Shown in pieces: positions 30,705 to 41,530 of a stretch of DNA of 47,318 nucleotides (positions are counted from its first letter, which is position 1; the number at the start of each line of letters is the position of its first letter). The translations under genes and the position numbers were made by a program. Below the pieces are notes generated by a model. It was not told the DNA's origin. It did no database searches and saw only the letters and a list, made by a program, of their open reading frames with translations. Origin of the DNA: a bacterium (lineage in GTDB: Bacteria; Patescibacteriota; Saccharimonadia; Saccharimonadales; SZUA-47); contig JAUIBQ010000007.1 of NCBI GenBank assembly GCA_030427445.1, positions 1 to 47,318 of the forward strand. The letters are read 5' to 3'.

Positions 30705-31069
30705 TGCCAAGAGATATCAGGCTAACCGCTGGTCTTTTTAGACGAGAGGAAAGTCCGAGCAGCATAGGCGAATGACAGTTGCTAACAGCAACCAGGGGTA
30801 ACCCTAGGGAAAGTGCCACAGAAACGAAACTACCACTTGTGGGTAAAAGATGAAAAGAGCAGGGTAAGAGCCTGCAGTTGGCTGTAGTGATGTAGCCAAA
30901 TGGTAAACCCTGTCTGCTGCAAGGAAGGTGGAATATTCAGTTATGATCGGTTCGCCGCCGTCCACCGACAAAACCGCTTGATCATTAGGGTGACTTAATG
31001 ACTAGATAGATGGTTAGCGTCGCACGCTCTGCATGCGGAACAAGACTCGGCTTATAGGTATCTCTTGGT
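30705..31069 (+). ncRNA. rnpB: RNase P RNA (bacterial type A-like)
   Basis: GAGGAAAGTCCGAGCA, CACAGAAAC, GGGTAAGAGCCTGCAG and terminal AAGAGATATC/GGTATCTCTT pairing. Confidence 0.92.
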
Positions 31070-32324: not shown

Positions 32325-33848
32325 TTATATTGTTTTTGTAGGACGATACTGCACAGCTTCTGCTATATGTTTTTTCTCAATAGCCTCTGAGCCTTCTAGA
32401 TCAGCAATAGTACGACTAATTTTGAGCAGTTTCATATAGACACGAGCGGAGAAGTCTAGTTTCTTAGCTGCAGTGTCCAGAAACTCCTTTGCCTCTGGTG
32501 TGATTAAGCTGAATTTATTAATTTGCTTATTGTTCATCTGGGCATTGTTCTTCTGACTTTTGAATCTCTTTTGCTGGATTTGTTGTGCTTGCTCAACGCG
32601 CTTCCGTATGGTGACTGAATTTTCGCCATTAGAGCTGCTTCCTAGGAGCTTCTCATGGTCGATATTGTCAACAGTCACATGGATGTCTATGCGGTCATTG
32701 ATAGGTCCTGATATCTTTTTGTGATATCTCGAAAGTTCGAGCGGGGAACAGGTACAAACCTTTGTGCTACCCCAATACCCGCATGGACATGGGTTCTTAG
32801 TTGCGACGAGGATAAAGTCTGCAGGGTAGGTAAGTGTTTCTTTTGCTCGAGACACAGTTACATTGCCGTCTTCGAGCGGCTGTCTCAGAGCTTCGATAGT
32901 GCTGCGCTTGAACTCTGGAAGCTCGTCCAAGAACAGTACACCGTGATGAGCAAGCGATACTTCTCCTGGCCGAGGGTTTTGGCCTCCACCAATGATCGCG
33001 ACATCACTTGAGCTATGGTGAGGTGACCTAAAAGGTCTGGTTTTAATCAAGGTGGTCGCATCGTTATTTGAAAGAGAATGAATATGTGTGATAGTCACTA
33101 CTTCTTGAGGAGAGGGGCTACTCATAATACTAGGGAGTGCTTTTGCGAGCATGCTTTTACCAACACCTGGAGGACCATTTAAGATAATGTTGTGTCCACC
33201 AGCAGCTGCAATCTCAAGTGCACGCTTTGCTCGCTGCTGTCCGACGATGTCCCTAAAATCCAATGCATTCTGGCTGTCTTCTTGAGACGTATCTATGTTA
33301 GAAGTGGTTGTTTTGAACGCTAGAGGCTCGTCGCTCGCCATTTGTTTGTAGAGTTCTTTTAAATTAACAACCGGTAGGTAAGTAATTCCTTCTATCAAGT
33401 TGATCTGATCTTCGTTCGCTGCAGGAATGATAAAGGTATCGAAGCCAAGTTTCATTGCACCTAAGACACGTCCAAGTATGCCGCGCACTGGCTTAACTGT
33501 GCCGTCTAAGCCGAGTTCACCAAAAATAACTATGTCTCTTTTGATAAGACGGATCATCTTTGACTCATGAAGTATTTGTAAAGCTATCGGTAAATCATAG
33601 TGAGAGCCGTCCTTGGGTATGTCGCTCGGGGATATATTAATCGTTATTCGTTTCTTAGGTAGTTGTAACTCGGATGCAGTGAATGCACTTCTTATACGCT
33701 CTTTAGACTCATCGAGAGATCTGCCCGCAAAGCCAACGATTGTCATTACCGGCAGTCCGTTACTCATGCTACATTCAGGTTCGACTAAGGTAGACGTACT
33801 GCCTGAATTATGGATAGTAAAGATGGCCATGATTGTATTCCTCTTCAA
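32325..33848 (-). CDS. YifB/ComM family Mg-chelatase-like AAA+ ATPase
   Basis: GLPVMTIVGFAGRSLDESKERI; NIILNGPPGVGKSMLAKALPSIM; FRSPHHSSSDVAIIGGG. Confidence 0.93.
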   Translation of the reverse strand: MKRNTIMAIFTIHNSGSTSTLVEPECSMSNGLPVMTIVGFAGRSLDESKERIRSAFTASELQLPKKRITINISPSDIPKDGSHYDLPIALQILHESKMIRLIKRDIVIFGELGLDGTVKPVRGILGRVLGAMKLGFDTFIIPAANEDQINLIEGITYLPVVNLKELYKQMASDEPLAFKTTTSNIDTSQEDSQNALDFRDIVGQQRAKRALEIAAAGGHNIILNGPPGVGKSMLAKALPSIMSSPSPQEVVTITHIHSLSNNDATTLIKTRPFRSPHHSSSDVAIIGGGQNPRPGEVSLAHHGVLFLDELPEFKRSTIEALRQPLEDGNVTVSRAKETLTYPADFILVATKNPCPCGYWGSTKVCTCSPLELSRYHKKISGPINDRIDIHVTVDNIDHEKLLGSSSNGENSVTIRKRVEQAQQIQQKRFKSQKNNAQMNNKQINKFSLITPEAKEFLDTAAKKLDFSARVYMKLLKISRTIADLEGSEAIEKKHIAEAVQYRPTKTI

Positions 33849-33920
33849 GTAAGTTTAGACATATAGTACCAGAGAAATAACCTAAAATCAGTGAAAAATA
33901 AAAAAGCTCTTAAAATAAGT

Positions 33921-33963
33921 AACGACGATCTGCGAGAGGATCGTCGTTACAGTTCTCGTTTTT
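33921..33963 (+). terminator. strong hairpin (terminator-like)
   Basis: GTAACGACGATC-tgcgagag-GATCGTCGTTAC followed by a T-rich stretch. Confidence 0.55.
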
Positions 33964-34655: not shown

Positions 34656-34684
34656 TTGACTTTTTATAGAGCTTATGCTAGATT
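34656..34684 (+). promoter_or_regulatory. sigma70-like promoter of a candidate ncRNA
   Basis: TTGACT-N17-TAGATT. Confidence 0.7.
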
Positions 34685-34690
34685 GTACTC

Positions 34691-34894
34691 ATGGTTCAAC
34701 AAAAACAAACAACCATTCAAAACAAAAATAGTGTCGCTCATGTAGGCCTAAAGCCCACATAGAGCGGTCAGTCAAACGTCCGATAAAAGGACGATAAGCG
34801 CTTCAATAGTATATTTTATAAAGTGCATTTATCGTCCTTGAAGGACTCTCTTATCTCGCATGAGCTGCACTACTTCTCTTGGTGCAGCTTTTTT
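34691..34894 (+). ncRNA. candidate structured small RNA (~204 nt), family unknown
   Basis: Promoter 7 nt upstream; hairpins ATGGTT/AACCAT, CGCTC..GAGCG, AAGGACGATAA..TTATCGTCCTT; terminator AGCTGCAC..GTGCAGCT-TTTTT. Confidence 0.65.
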
Positions 34895-34926: not shown

Positions 34927-35280
34927 ATGAAGTTTATCGATCGTAGCAGCCTAAATCGAATAGCAGTTATCGTACTGTCTAGTTTTTTGCTGATCCTCTA
35001 TGTAGTACTGATTGACCCAAGTAGCGGAGGTTTATTGGTGATACTTGGGCCTATAATACTTGCCTGGGTTATTTTATATGCTTTTGTAAGTGTGGTTCTT
35101 GATAAAGTGTTGCACAAGACTCGAATAACAGTAGTGCGGTTTGTATCTGCTACTATTGCATCATCTGGCCTGTTCTTCCTGCTGTTAAGCGGTATTGGCA
35201 CAATCAGCGCAGTAGACGTTGTATTAACTAGCGCTCTAGTATTGATAATTGGCTTTTATGTTGCTCGACTCTGGAAATAA
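34927..35280 (+). CDS. small membrane protein
   Basis: MKFIDRSSLNRIAVIVLSSFLLILY... with four predicted TM segments; supplied start 34879 falls in the ncRNA terminator. Confidence 0.65.
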   Translation: MKFIDRSSLNRIAVIVLSSFLLILYVVLIDPSSGGLLVILGPIILAWVILYAFVSVVLDKVLHKTRITVVRFVSATIASSGLFFLLLSGIGTISAVDVVLTSALVLIIGFYVARLWK

Positions 35281-35331: not shown

Positions 35332-35640
35332 ATGAATAATAATCAAACAGACGACCACATTCTGCCTACACCGGCTGCAAATCCAGCGACTTCTAGCAAT
35401 GGAGCCGCCCAGTCTGCTCCTGCTATGACTCAAGCAGGTCAACAATACACAGGTTCGCAAACTGATACTCCAATTCGTGCAGATGATATCGATCTAATAG
35501 AAAAAGCATGGGTAACAAAGGCGAAGTCAATTGTAGATGCAACGGTAGGTGATCCTAAACGACAAAGTAATGAACTAAATAAAATGAAGTCAGATTACAT
35601 CTCCAAGAGATTCAATAAGGAGCTGCCAGGAAATGACTAA
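35332..35640 (+). CDS. hypothetical protein
   Basis: 102-aa ORF directly upstream of the HerA/TraG-like ATPase gene. Confidence 0.6.
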   Translation: MNNNQTDDHILPTPAANPATSSNGAAQSAPAMTQAGQQYTGSQTDTPIRADDIDLIEKAWVTKAKSIVDATVGDPKRQSNELNKMKSDYISKRFNKELPGND

Positions 35641-35667: not shown

Positions 35668-38403
35668 ATGATTTTTGCTGTGATTATGATTAGTCTAGTT
35701 GTTTTGCTGATCTTGGTAGGATTTATTACGTATTACTCAGTTAGAAAGTCTTGGCGAGAACAAAAGAACTTCGAGCGTGGTCTTAAGATGGTACCTCTTT
35801 GGATCCATTTACCTCCGCAGAGTTCAGATATCGAGGGTGGAGGTCGAGATGAAAGAGACGTACATGACGAAACAATCTCAAAGGCACAGACACTATATGG
35901 CATCATAGCTAGCTCATATCAAAAAGGGTTCAAGAATACGTTTTATGGTCAACGACATATAGGATTCGAAATAGTCGCTCAGGGTGGGTTCGTGAAGTTT
36001 TATGCTGTTGTGCCAGTTTCTATGATAGAGCTTGTCCAGCAAGCGGTTACAAGTGCATATCCGTCAGCACGACTTGAAGAAGTTCCAGAGCACAACATAT
36101 TTAACGATAAAGGCAAAACCATAGGAACCGTGGGTGGTGAGCTGCATCTAAAAGAAGATGCTTCGCAGCCTATCGCAACATACCAAGAGATGCGACGCGA
36201 CTCGATGCAGTCGTTACTGAACGCACTTTCTGGTATGGATAAAGAAGATGGTGCTGCTGTTCAGATATTGATTCGCCCATCCCACCCGATGTGGCGTAAA
36301 AACTCACTGGCGAAAGCCGAGAAAAAGCGCAAAGGAAAAGATTCGAAAAGTGGGGCTACTAAGGTTATGACAGGGTGGTTCAGCGACTTACTATACGCAC
36401 CTGTAAAGCCACCGGAAGAGCGTGAAAAAGAAAAGAAAGAAGAAGACAAATCGCTCTCGAGTAGTGACCAGGCGTTAGTTGAGTCAATTGAAGAGAAGGC
36501 GCGTCATGCAACTTTTGAAAGTCAAATACGGGTAGTTACGTCCTCGGCAAATCACCAAAAAGCGCAATCATTATATAACTCAATCATCGCCACATTCTCG
36601 CTTTTTGATTCTCCAGGTAGAAATGGTTTTAAGGTTAGTAATACAAAGGATATAGATGAATTCATTACGGGCTATTTGTTACGAATTTTCCCTCAGGAAG
36701 CAACCAAGCTCGTCTTGAATACGGTTGAGCTTTCAACATTGTTCCACTTCCCAGCGCAGAATAGTATTCCAACGACACAGTTAGAGCGACAGATGTCTAA
36801 GCAAGTCGACGGTCCGCGAAACGTGCCGGAAGAAGGACTCGCACTCGGGTATAACGTATTCCGCGGGACTAAAAAGAAGATTAATCTAGACGAAGAGGAC
36901 AGAAGACGGCATATTTATTCAGTTGGACAGACTGGAACTGGTAAGTCGACTTTTCTAGAGAACCTTGCAGTTCAAGACATGATAAATGGTGCAGGCTTTG
37001 CATTTATCGATCCTCACGGAGATAGCGCTGAAAAACTATTATCAATGGTGCCGAAAGAGCGTGCTGAGGACGTGATTTATTTCTCTCCTGCTGATATGGA
37101 TTACCCACTTGGCCTTAATCTTTTTGAATTCCAGAATCCAGAGCAGAAAGACTTTATTATCCAAGAAGCGATAAATATGCTTTATAAGCTATACGATCCG
37201 CAAAGACAGGGGATTATCGGTCCAAGGTTCGAGCGCATATTCACTAACTGTGCTCAGCTTTTGATGGCAGATCCGAACGGCGGTACGTTTATCGATGTGC
37301 CGAAATTGTTAATCGATCCAGACTTCATGAAACCAAAACTGAAGTATACAGATGACCAGAACGTGATCGACTTCTGGACTAAAGAGTGGCCAAACTCACA
37401 GCGTTCTAATGAGGCTGGAGAAGTGACAAGTTGGGTGGTGAGTAAGTTTGGTGCTTTTTTGAGCAATGAAATGATGCGCAATATCGTAGGCCAAAATAAG
37501 AGTTCGTTCAGTATTCCAGACATTATGAATAATAAAAAAATATTGCTAGTGAACCTTTCAAAAGGTCGGCTAGGAGAGCTTAACTCCAAATTACTAGGAA
37601 TGATATTTGTGATGAAGTTCCAGGCTGCGGCTATGGATAGAGCGAATATATTAGAGTCAGAACGTACTGATTTTGGCCTGTACGTTGATGAGTTTCAGAA
37701 CTTCTCGACCGATTCTTTTGCAAGTATATTAAGTGAAGCACGAAAGTATCGACTTAATTTGATTGTTGCAAACCAGTTTACGACACAGCTAACTGAAGAA
37801 ATTCGTGATGCTGTATTTGGTAACGTTGGTACGATAGTGTGTTTCCGTGTGGGTACGCAAGACGCTGACTTCTTGGCGAAGCAATTTGCACCTATGTTTG
37901 ATATCGATGACTTGCAGCGCATCCCTAACTATAATGCAGTTCTCAGGATGCTTATTCGCGGCGTTCCAACACAAGCCTTTAGCATGGCGACGCTTCCGCC
38001 ACTTGGAGTAGAGAATCGTGAACTTGGTGACGCCCTTAAGCAGCTCTCAGCAGCGAAATACGGTCGACCCAGGGCTATTGTCGAAAAAGAGATAATGGAC
38101 AGAATAAGGACGCCTGAGAAGCCTGAGGGGGTGTCAGCAAGTGCTACACCAACAGCTCCAAAGCAACCTAGCACGGGTTCTTCTTTCCTCGATGATTGGC
38201 TTGATAAAAAAGATAAGCCATTAGCACCTCGCCAAAGTCCATTTAATAATGCGCAGCAACCTCCTCAAACACAAGTTCAGCCAGCTCAAACTACGACTCA
38301 GCAACCTCAGCCTCCTCAGGTACAGCCCGTGCAAAACGACACAAGAAACGACTCGGTCTTATCGACTGACAGTGGAGCTGACCAGACAATCTCTATTAGG
38401 TAA
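35668..38403 (+). CDS. HerA/VirD4(TraG)-like type IV secretion/DNA-transfer ATPase
   Basis: N-terminal TM; YSVGQTGTGKSTFLENLAVQDMINGAGFAFIDPHGD Walker A; LYVDEFQNFSTDSFASILSEARKYRLNLIVANQFTTQL Walker B. Confidence 0.88.
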   Translation: MIFAVIMISLVVLLILVGFITYYSVRKSWREQKNFERGLKMVPLWIHLPPQSSDIEGGGRDERDVHDETISKAQTLYGIIASSYQKGFKNTFYGQRHIGFEIVAQGGFVKFYAVVPVSMIELVQQAVTSAYPSARLEEVPEHNIFNDKGKTIGTVGGELHLKEDASQPIATYQEMRRDSMQSLLNALSGMDKEDGAAVQILIRPSHPMWRKNSLAKAEKKRKGKDSKSGATKVMTGWFSDLLYAPVKPPEEREKEKKEEDKSLSSSDQALVESIEEKARHATFESQIRVVTSSANHQKAQSLYNSIIATFSLFDSPGRNGFKVSNTKDIDEFITGYLLRIFPQEATKLVLNTVELSTLFHFPAQNSIPTTQLERQMSKQVDGPRNVPEEGLALGYNVFRGTKKKINLDEEDRRRHIYSVGQTGTGKSTFLENLAVQDMINGAGFAFIDPHGDSAEKLLSMVPKERAEDVIYFSPADMDYPLGLNLFEFQNPEQKDFIIQEAINMLYKLYDPQRQGIIGPRFERIFTNCAQLLMADPNGGTFIDVPKLLIDPDFMKPKLKYTDDQNVIDFWTKEWPNSQRSNEAGEVTSWVVSKFGAFLSNEMMRNIVGQNKSSFSIPDIMNNKKILLVNLSKGRLGELNSKLLGMIFVMKFQAAAMDRANILESERTDFGLYVDEFQNFSTDSFASILSEARKYRLNLIVANQFTTQLTEEIRDAVFGNVGTIVCFRVGTQDADFLAKQFAPMFDIDDLQRIPNYNAVLRMLIRGVPTQAFSMATLPPLGVENRELGDALKQLSAAKYGRPRAIVEKEIMDRIRTPEKPEGVSASATPTAPKQPSTGSSFLDDWLDKKDKPLAPRQSPFNNAQQPPQTQVQPAQTTTQQPQPPQVQPVQNDTRNDSVLSTDSGADQTISIR

Positions 38404-38974: not shown

Positions 38975-41530
38975 CTAAATGCCTCCTGTTGTTATGAAAT
39001 CATTACGAATAATTGAAAGTTCTTTACGCAATAATCGTGAGCGAGCGTAGAAGTAACCTACGACAAACGTGATGCTCATACCGCCGATTAAACTTGCGCC
39101 AGGACCTGTGTTAGGTAGGGTTTCAACACCTTTTACAGCAGGGCATGCTACTTTGAGTGACACTTCATTTCCGTATTCGTTACTAATCTCACAGTCGTAA
39201 GCTGTGCCTAATGTAGATGGGCTATTTGTTGCAGGTATTGTCTCTTTCATCTTTACTTTGAATGAGTGATGAACGCTCGTATTTGCAGGTATTGTGACGT
39301 TTTTCCAGACGACTTCTTGGTGCTCCTCGTCGTACTCACCACCTTGTTCTTTGAGGTAGGTCAAGTCTAGGTCTGCGTAATCAAGTATATCGCCGATGTA
39401 GTCTCGTATTTCTAGGCCATCTCTTGAATAATTTAAGGTGTTATTTGTTGTGAGTGTATACAACAACTCGTCGTCTGATCGAACTCGTGAACTTGGATCA
39501 ATCGTTTGAGCCTCATCAAGTTTCTGTGTAAGATTCACCACCGATTTCTCCTCGGTTATAGGTGCGTCAAAATCCACTTCTTCTTCACAATCAACTCGAC
39601 GATCTTCAGTTTCTTCCTGACCAGTAATGCGGTAGTAAACGGTAGCAGTCATGATGTATCTGCCAGGTTTATATGTGTGCTCGACCGTGTCAGAGAACTC
39701 ATTACTCTCTCTGGACGCTGTCGCCGTATCTCCAAAGTCATAGTCGTATCGTGAGACAGATGTGTTTCCTTTATTACTACTTGTTACTTCAGTTGTGAAT
39801 GTCGCTTTCTTTGTCTCTTGGTCAAACACTCCATTTGTAACTTCACAAGCTACGACAGGCTGTGTGCAGTTTTCATCACGCTCGTCCGGGATGGATGGGT
39901 CGTACTGACATGGAATGATAACGGTGAAGCATTCTCGGCTCGTTTTCTTAGATGCATTTGAAGCGACGATACTACTTGCGTTACATACTTCATCACCTGA
40001 CTTCACGGAGTCTTTTAGTCTTACGTGCACGCGTATAACTTTGTTGCTATAGCCTAGTACTGAATGGCGCAGTTCAATTTTACCGAGACCTTTGTCAGCT
40101 ATTTCTGGGTCTACACTAATCAGTTCTACAAAATTTGTGTTCAATGTATCAGCGATGACAACATCTCTCGCAGCAGAACCGTTAACGGTATTGCCATACT
40201 CTATTGCGTAGGTAAGCTGGTCACCTGGGAGGTAGTTACTTTTTTTGTTCAATACCGATTTACGGATGTATAGGGAAGGGTCTGGTTCCGGCATCTTACA
40301 ATTTGGATCTTCTGCCCAAAGGTCTGTTAGTCCTGTGTAGACACATGGTTTACATCGTGGATCGTCTTTATTTAAGTTTGGATTGTATTCACATTTTTCT
40401 GGGGGAGCTTCTCGTCGAATACTTGCTTCGCAAGATGATGAGTGTTCGAGCCATTGCCCATTGTCGCGATCAAGTAAGCGGATAACAATCTTATCACTTA
40501 AGTCCGAAACAGCTACGTTTAGTTGCACAGTAAAATCAGATGTTTGAGCTGACGTTACATAGTATCTCTTGTACGTGTTGCCGTCGAGGTCCCATTTAAA
40601 CTGATAAAATCCAACACCTTTGATCCCAGTATTTAGAGGAGTGTAGTTTGAGCTGGTATCGGGTGCTGTGTGTGGCGGTGCACTAATGAGGGCTTGATCG
40701 TCAACATTCCATAGTCGATTTGCCCCTTTGTGTGTGACGCCGATATGCAATCCTTTGCCTTTACCGCTTGCACTTCCAGCTTGAATTTTTGTATTTTTTG
40801 CAAGACTTATAGAAACCGGGATTGTTGCTGAGGTGGCATCACGACCAATTGTGATCGGTCCTGCTACTTCGCAGGCTGCACCGATAACTGGTTTTTTAGG
40901 TGGAGGTGGAACATAACGACCGACTGTCGTAAAGTTTCCGCAATCAAGAAGTATGTAGAACGTTGCACCAGTGGCAGCAATTGTTCCTTGAAGCGCATAG
41001 TAGTGATTACACGAATTCACGATATCCCATGCCTTAAGATCTCTCTGATAAATATTTCTGCCAGGCTGGTATTCAATTGCGACTTGAGAGTTTTTGTATT
41101 GATCAGCTACTTTTGAGTAGCCAGAAAGAGAGTTTCTGCCTGTAGTCCACCAATCTTGTCCGTCGCATGAACTGATCCGTACATGTTTTGATTGAGTGTT
41201 AGCTATGTTTGCAATATCTTGTTTTGTTACACCGAAATAGCCATAAATATCTTTAACGTCTGTACTGTCCCAAGCTCCTACAATAAGATTTACATTAGAG
41301 CGAACAGAGTTATTTGTTGTTAGGCCATCAAATATGTGATTTGAGCTGGACGCCAAAGATTTCTGTGGCGGAGCTACTACTGCGATTGTTTGAACCACCA
41401 TTGCGAGTGCTATGAACACAAAACTTAGACGCCTCAATGCGTTTTCTTGCTTGATACGGTTTGCGTAGAATCCAACCTGGTTGATAAGGCCAGGATTGAA
41501 GTTGAGGTTTGAGACGAGTTTGTTGAACAT
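38975..41530 (-). CDS. large surface protein with DUF11/PKD-like repeats and LPNTG anchor
   Basis: N-terminal signal/TM, repeat-like beta domains, C-terminal LPNTGPGASLIGGMSITFVVGYFYARSRLLRKE. Confidence 0.85.
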   Translation of the reverse strand: MFNKLVSNLNFNPGLINQVGFYANRIKQENALRRLSFVFIALAMVVQTIAVVAPPQKSLASSSNHIFDGLTTNNSVRSNVNLIVGAWDSTDVKDIYGYFGVTKQDIANIANTQSKHVRISSCDGQDWWTTGRNSLSGYSKVADQYKNSQVAIEYQPGRNIYQRDLKAWDIVNSCNHYYALQGTIAATGATFYILLDCGNFTTVGRYVPPPPKKPVIGAACEVAGPITIGRDATSATIPVSISLAKNTKIQAGSASGKGKGLHIGVTHKGANRLWNVDDQALISAPPHTAPDTSSNYTPLNTGIKGVGFYQFKWDLDGNTYKRYYVTSAQTSDFTVQLNVAVSDLSDKIVIRLLDRDNGQWLEHSSSCEASIRREAPPEKCEYNPNLNKDDPRCKPCVYTGLTDLWAEDPNCKMPEPDPSLYIRKSVLNKKSNYLPGDQLTYAIEYGNTVNGSAARDVVIADTLNTNFVELISVDPEIADKGLGKIELRHSVLGYSNKVIRVHVRLKDSVKSGDEVCNASSIVASNASKKTSRECFTVIIPCQYDPSIPDERDENCTQPVVACEVTNGVFDQETKKATFTTEVTSSNKGNTSVSRYDYDFGDTATASRESNEFSDTVEHTYKPGRYIMTATVYYRITGQEETEDRRVDCEEEVDFDAPITEEKSVVNLTQKLDEAQTIDPSSRVRSDDELLYTLTTNNTLNYSRDGLEIRDYIGDILDYADLDLTYLKEQGGEYDEEHQEVVWKNVTIPANTSVHHSFKVKMKETIPATNSPSTLGTAYDCEISNEYGNEVSLKVACPAVKGVETLPNTGPGASLIGGMSITFVVGYFYARSRLLRKELSIIRNDFITTGGI

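Follow-up and report, generated by a model that had tools for sequence, protein, structure and literature searches.

A conserved structured RNA upstream of a T4SS-like operon in Saccharibacteria, with a possible base-pairing function

What is encoded in the intergenic DNA between a divergent ComM/YifB-like gene and the gene of a small hydrophobic protein, where an earlier note had read a compact RNA, running from promoter to terminator, that fits no recognised family? In the window (the whole 47,318-nt stretch of DNA analysed here), the predicted RNA gene covers 204 nt of the plus strand, from the putative +1 to the end of the terminator (34691..34894), and was defined by its fold, its homologs, and the lack of an Rfam match. 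All its elements lie on the same strand. The promoter, TTGACT-N17-TAGATT with a TG before the -10 box, has its -35 box at 34656-34661 and its -10 box at 34679-34684. The RNA would start with a 5′-terminal hairpin, AUGGUU/AACCAU, with an A/C-rich loop (34691..34716), followed by hairpin P1 (34735..34766), in which the outer CGCUC/GAGCG is conserved in sequence and the inner part varies but pairs. The segment GAGCGGUCAGUCA (34762..34774) joins the 3′ arm of P1 to an exposed toehold. After it, P2 (GUCC/GGAC) surrounds P3 (GGACGAUAAGCGCUU / AAGUGCAUUUAUCGUCC), which carries an A/U-rich apical loop (34778..34846), and an intrinsic terminator of 11 pairs, detected by terminator scan, closes the gene (34863..34894). 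The promoter, 5′ hairpin, P1, nested P2/P3, and terminator that the earlier note had listed were thus all found at the positions it gave. The fold energy of the 204-nt segment was -64.2 kcal/mol, compared with -36.9 ± 3.5 for shuffled sequences (z = -7.75), and none of the 200 shuffles was as good.

The conservation of the helices was analysed on homologs, as had been proposed. In an earlier alignment of 25 sequences (A1), compensatory changes were observed at 9 of the 19 pairs. In the alignment of 54 homologs (A2), 98.4% of the pair cells pair and two-sided changes occur at 13 of the 19 pairs, a number reached by none of 500 shuffles; 94 cells show two-sided changes versus 17 ± 7 in the shuffles, and the signal was lost when the partners were slid. 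Four of the five pairs of the P1 outer helix have two-sided changes. The consensus helices are kept in a fixed order: the 5′-terminal hairpin with its A/C-rich loop, P1 closed by CGCUC/GAGCG, the exposed GUCAGUCA, and P2 enclosing P3 (GGACGAUAAGCGCU...AGCGGAUUUAUCGUCC) with an A/U-rich loop. The stem of the 5′ hairpin varies among homologs (GUAAG/CUUAC, UUCAG/CUGAA, GAUC/GAUC) and its AAAACAAAAA loop is usually retained. GAGCGGUCAGUCA is exact in 41 of the 54 homologs and GGUCAGUCA in 45. That the locus holds a structured RNA which is conserved and which Rfam lacks is practically certain.

The promoter was considered separately. In the window it scores 9/12, and the AT-rich region contains 8 such sites versus 6.9 expected, which is not above chance; among 52 homologs, 47 have a TTGAC-N16..18-YAnnnT promoter in front, versus 1.1 expected from shuffles. 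The terminator scan recovered the terminator of the RNA among 4 sites in the region (0.9 expected), and a terminator follows 25 of the 52 homologs. The reading of a compact RNA with its own start is therefore supported by compensatory helix conservation, by the conserved promoter, and by the absence of any Rfam match. Of the promoter-to-terminator layout, the promoter holds as a general feature and the terminator does not. The competing GTCC/GGAC repeats, proposed in the earlier note as alternative pairings, turned out to be a local coincidence that homologs do not keep, since in most of them P2 carries AGCC/GGCU and P3 carries GGACGAU/AUCGUCC, so that the partners are not exchangeable. Two other candidates were discarded. 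The short ORF across the 5′ hairpin (MVQQK..., MFSKNKNPE) is open in the family of the window only, and elsewhere the hairpin is kept without a start codon. The idea that the A-rich loop of the 5′ hairpin pairs with the U-rich loop of P3 was rejected because the A-rich loop is lost in two loci (L014 and L030) where the P3 loop is unchanged.

Within one order of Saccharibacteria, which are ultrasmall parasitic bacteria, most families have kept the RNA, and it also occurs in a few neighbours of that order. Its core was found in many families by DNA search of 99 relatives. With model R1, nine genomes of the order were matched in a phylum sample of 382; outside the class there was one clear case (G352), with a c2-like gene downstream, and further weak cases. 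The upstream region of the operon was also fetched for 40 loci and scanned with R1, and the RNA was present at the same locus in 20 of the 21 sampled genomes of the order outside the divergent family f35. Model R2 matched 122 of 393 genomes of the class, 121 of them with a single match; four of the matching genomes are from f35 and five are from other orders of the class, and the non-matching genomes, among those listed, all belong to f35. A pattern scan of a contig collection was too permissive and returned mostly unrelated sequences, together with four Saccharibacteria records that match R1. In f35 (L186-L193, L200) a form of about 440 nt occupies the same place in the operon upstream region. 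In it GGUCAGU is retained next to a P1-like hairpin, the tip of P3 is similar, and it folds well (z = -6.35 for one sequence); its homology is based on position and motifs because the R2 scores are weak there. The f35 form has extra domains with recurring GAUGCUCCGCC and UUAGUACC motifs, and five of these f35 loci have the 3′ end of tmRNA some 1 kb upstream.

Considering the near invariance of the segment beside P1, its possible partners are of particular concern. Perfect antisense partners of GAGCGGUCAGUCA (12-15 nt) exist outside its own locus in five genomes, by a search for long partner sites that reached a minority of the genomes; in four of them, from four families, the partner site is in the 3′ flank of a gene for an LPXTG-type surface protein. 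BLAST of the 99 relatives gave 16-nt perfect off-locus matches to the invariant segment in G024, G045, G062, and G065. All four sites are antisense and 3′ of a stop codon, that of an LPXTG-type gene in G024, G062, and G065 and that of tuf (3′UTR) in G045; base composition alone would give, by rough estimate, about 0.03-0.2 matches of this kind in 99 genomes. Around the site, the three LPXTG flanks show no resemblance to one another by eye, and tRNA-Glu follows in all three. The predicted duplexes range from -28 to -44 kcal/mol; the pairing runs past the invariant part in G062 and G024. A clear promoter for a 3′ small RNA was detected only at the G024 site (11/12), the scans at the other partner sites having found none. 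Neither the surroundings of start codons nor other mRNAs showed an enrichment of words complementary to the segment, and thus no hint of a wide regulon was seen.

As an independent test, the whole genome of the window (G000, 43 contigs, 965,930 bases) was searched afterwards. In its LPXTG ortholog (E = 3e-123 against that of G024, 1e-26 against G062, and 2e-8 against G065), the stop codon is followed by GACTGACCGC at 9 nt and by GACTGACCGCTC at 194 nt. This gene ranked first of 878 for predicted 3′-flank pairing with the toehold, and the best duplex of the genome outside the RNA locus is located in its 3′ flank. By the same 3′-flank measure tuf was first of 818 genes in G045, where an LPXTG-type gene was third for its 5′ flank. 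On the minus strand of contig C40 of this genome (23545-23795, in L336) there is a second stretch that is A-rich, structured, and apparently noncoding; it has a terminator-like hairpin and no Rfam match, and in it GACUGACC is in a loop closed by AGAGC/GCUCU. A paralog of the C40 protein is encoded in the window itself (38975-41530, minus strand), an 851-aa surface protein ending in LPNTGP and a membrane helix; no antisense site with up to 3 mismatches was found near the end of this gene.

We propose that this new structured RNA family, expressed from its own promoter, functions by base pairing through GAGCGGUCAGUCA, and judging from sequence we give this reading a probability of roughly 0.5. 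The exposed GUCAGUCA would act as a toehold. A partner RNA bearing GACUGACCGCUC would pair with it, displace the 5′ arm of P1, and open P1 and sometimes P2. Strand displacement would be the natural mechanism because the CGCUC of the partner has the very letters of the P1 5′ arm, and such an opening would account for the sequence conservation of the P1 closing helix. The partner may be the mRNA 3′UTR, or a short 3′ transcript, of the LPXTG-type gene (of tuf in one genome). Most likely, the two would form a regulatory pair of RNAs through which surface-protein expression is tied to the RNA, in the manner of a small RNA with a 3′UTR target or sponge, and the effect could run in either direction. 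In the variant L044 the RNA carries GAGCAGCCAGUCA at the GAGCGGUCAGUCA segment, and its partner would be expected to read TGACTGGCTGCTC. The antisense partner makes the mechanism testable by mutating complementary bases. The compensatory structure, the promoter, the nearly constant single copy, the antisense sites, and the independent test in G000 argue for base pairing; the small number of genomes with a long partner site, the clear 3′ promoter in G024 only, the missing sign of a wide regulon, and the strongest site of G045, being in tuf and not in a surface-protein gene, argue against it. By comparison with small RNAs of the GcvB/SroC type and 3′UTR-derived sponges (PMC9438474), the RNA is alike in its own promoter, its conserved exposed pairing segment, and a partner in an mRNA 3′ region, and in the genome of the window also in the intrinsic terminator. 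It differs in that there is no sequence relation, the partner mimics one arm of P1, and no wide target set was seen.

The main rival arises from the gene neighbourhood, since in almost every case the same operon follows the RNA directly, in some genomes with no terminator in between, and a strict position of this kind is more typical of a cis element. The order comM, RNA, small membrane protein, small protein, and VirD4-like ATPase is kept among the loci. In the window the divergent upstream neighbour (32325..33848, minus strand) is the gene that we take to be ComM/YifB-like from its sequence. Between it and the RNA, a strong inverted repeat (GTAACGACGATC...GATCGTCGTTAC, 33919-33950) is terminator-like on both strands. 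Downstream on the plus strand are c2 (34927..35280), which adjoins the RNA and encodes a hydrophobic, probably membrane, protein of about 117 aa, syntenic and without Pfam match; c0 (35332..35640), for a syntenic 102-aa small protein of unknown function; and c1 (35668..38403), for a syntenic VirD4/TraD/TraG-like ATPase. The RNA could accordingly be a cis-acting leader of c2/c0/c1, whether riboswitch, attenuator, or a leader opened by an RNA in trans, and we regard this as rather unlikely, at clearly lower odds than base pairing. In 47 of 48 loci c2 follows the RNA directly and in the same orientation, with a spacer of 0-175 nt in 46 of them; about half of the loci have a terminator in between and others almost no spacer, and a separate c2 promoter lacks statistical support outside f35 (5 of 47, versus 5.8 expected). 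Against a leader, TATAAT-like boxes stand directly before the c2 start in f35, the gap to c2 reaches 552 nt in one locus (L016), and the trans antisense partners are left unexplained unless the ligand is itself an RNA. Like riboswitches and attenuators, the RNA is structured, directly upstream of one operon, and often followed by a terminator; unlike them, it matches no known class, and its terminator is neither conserved nor tied to the core through any alternative pairing that homologs share. A bolder version of the base-pairing proposal touches the same operon: a natural toehold switch, in which RNA from the 3′ end of the surface-protein mRNA would open P1 of the RNA, be it a leader or a small RNA, by displacing a strand, and couple surface-protein expression to the T4SS-like operon, in an SRP-less lineage and as a family of 200-440-nt RNAs spread across the class and perhaps the phylum. 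This we offer as a speculation that is unlikely to hold in full.

It is also conceivable, by analogy, that the RNA forms a membrane-bound RNP with the neighbouring membrane protein. For OLE RNA, adjacency to the gene of a small membrane protein was the first clue to OapA (PMC11332333), and here too the RNA gene is strictly beside a gene for a small, hydrophobic protein, while its size and extra domains vary as they do in stable RNPs. The present RNA is however 200-440 nt long versus about 600 nt, belongs to another phylum, gave no match to the CM of OLE RNA (a family present in Rfam), and has a neighbour protein unrelated to OapA by annotation; c2 shows no sign of an RNA-binding domain, and the antisense partners would have no explanation. 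We consider such an RNP improbable.

A strongly diverged housekeeping RNA is still less probable, to a degree that we give it little room. The comparison with 6S RNA (RF00013) and bacterial SRP RNA (RF00169, RF01854) is suggested by size, wide distribution, and single copy, and the slot looks empty, none of the three models having matched in the genome of the window. The search against all Rfam proposed by the earlier note gave no family at the place of the RNA at the gathering score (Rfam 15), and the 801-nt region gave only five sub-threshold chance matches at E ≤ 10. CM searches and fold agree with the earlier statement that this is not rnpB, tmRNA, SRP RNA, or 6S: the RNase P RNA of the window is a separate gene at 30710-31069, and tmRNA is elsewhere in the genome (C40:1930-2302), with none in the window. 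SRP RNA was rejected because the protein side is missing too. The Ffh M domain (PF02978) was absent from all 16 genomes searched, including that of the window (control 14/14), and the SRP-GTPase motif (DTAGR) from the complete genome G045; the fold, moreover, has no SRP domain IV. Parcubacteria and many CPR bacteria are reported to have lost SRP (PMC4508563, PMC8080830). RF00169 was not matched in any of 240 phylum genomes, and in these samples the order of the RNA is likewise without SRP RNA and the M domain. 6S RNA was discarded, as the fold lacks the long rod with a central bubble.

A chance fold in AT-rich intergenic DNA, for which the window promoter taken alone would leave room, is refuted by conservation, given the z value, the covariation, and the conserved promoter and synteny, and its probability is negligible.

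What remains is an RNA absent from Rfam and yet conserved across one order of Patescibacteria, with its own promoter and beside a T4SS-like operon. To our knowledge, no regulatory RNA has been described for the Saccharibacteria epibionts, and a limited full-text literature search found no paper on this one.

In the genome of the window, 62 nt of contig C17 (16166-16228, in L002) share 79% identity with the RNA gene over its promoter and 5′ end, a comparable strong promoter at another place. In other classes, R2 weakly matched L212 (28 bits) and L213 (25 bits); both have A-rich stretches upstream and a P3-like hairpin, followed directly on its 3′ side in L212 by a T run; these two are possible distant relatives of the RNA.
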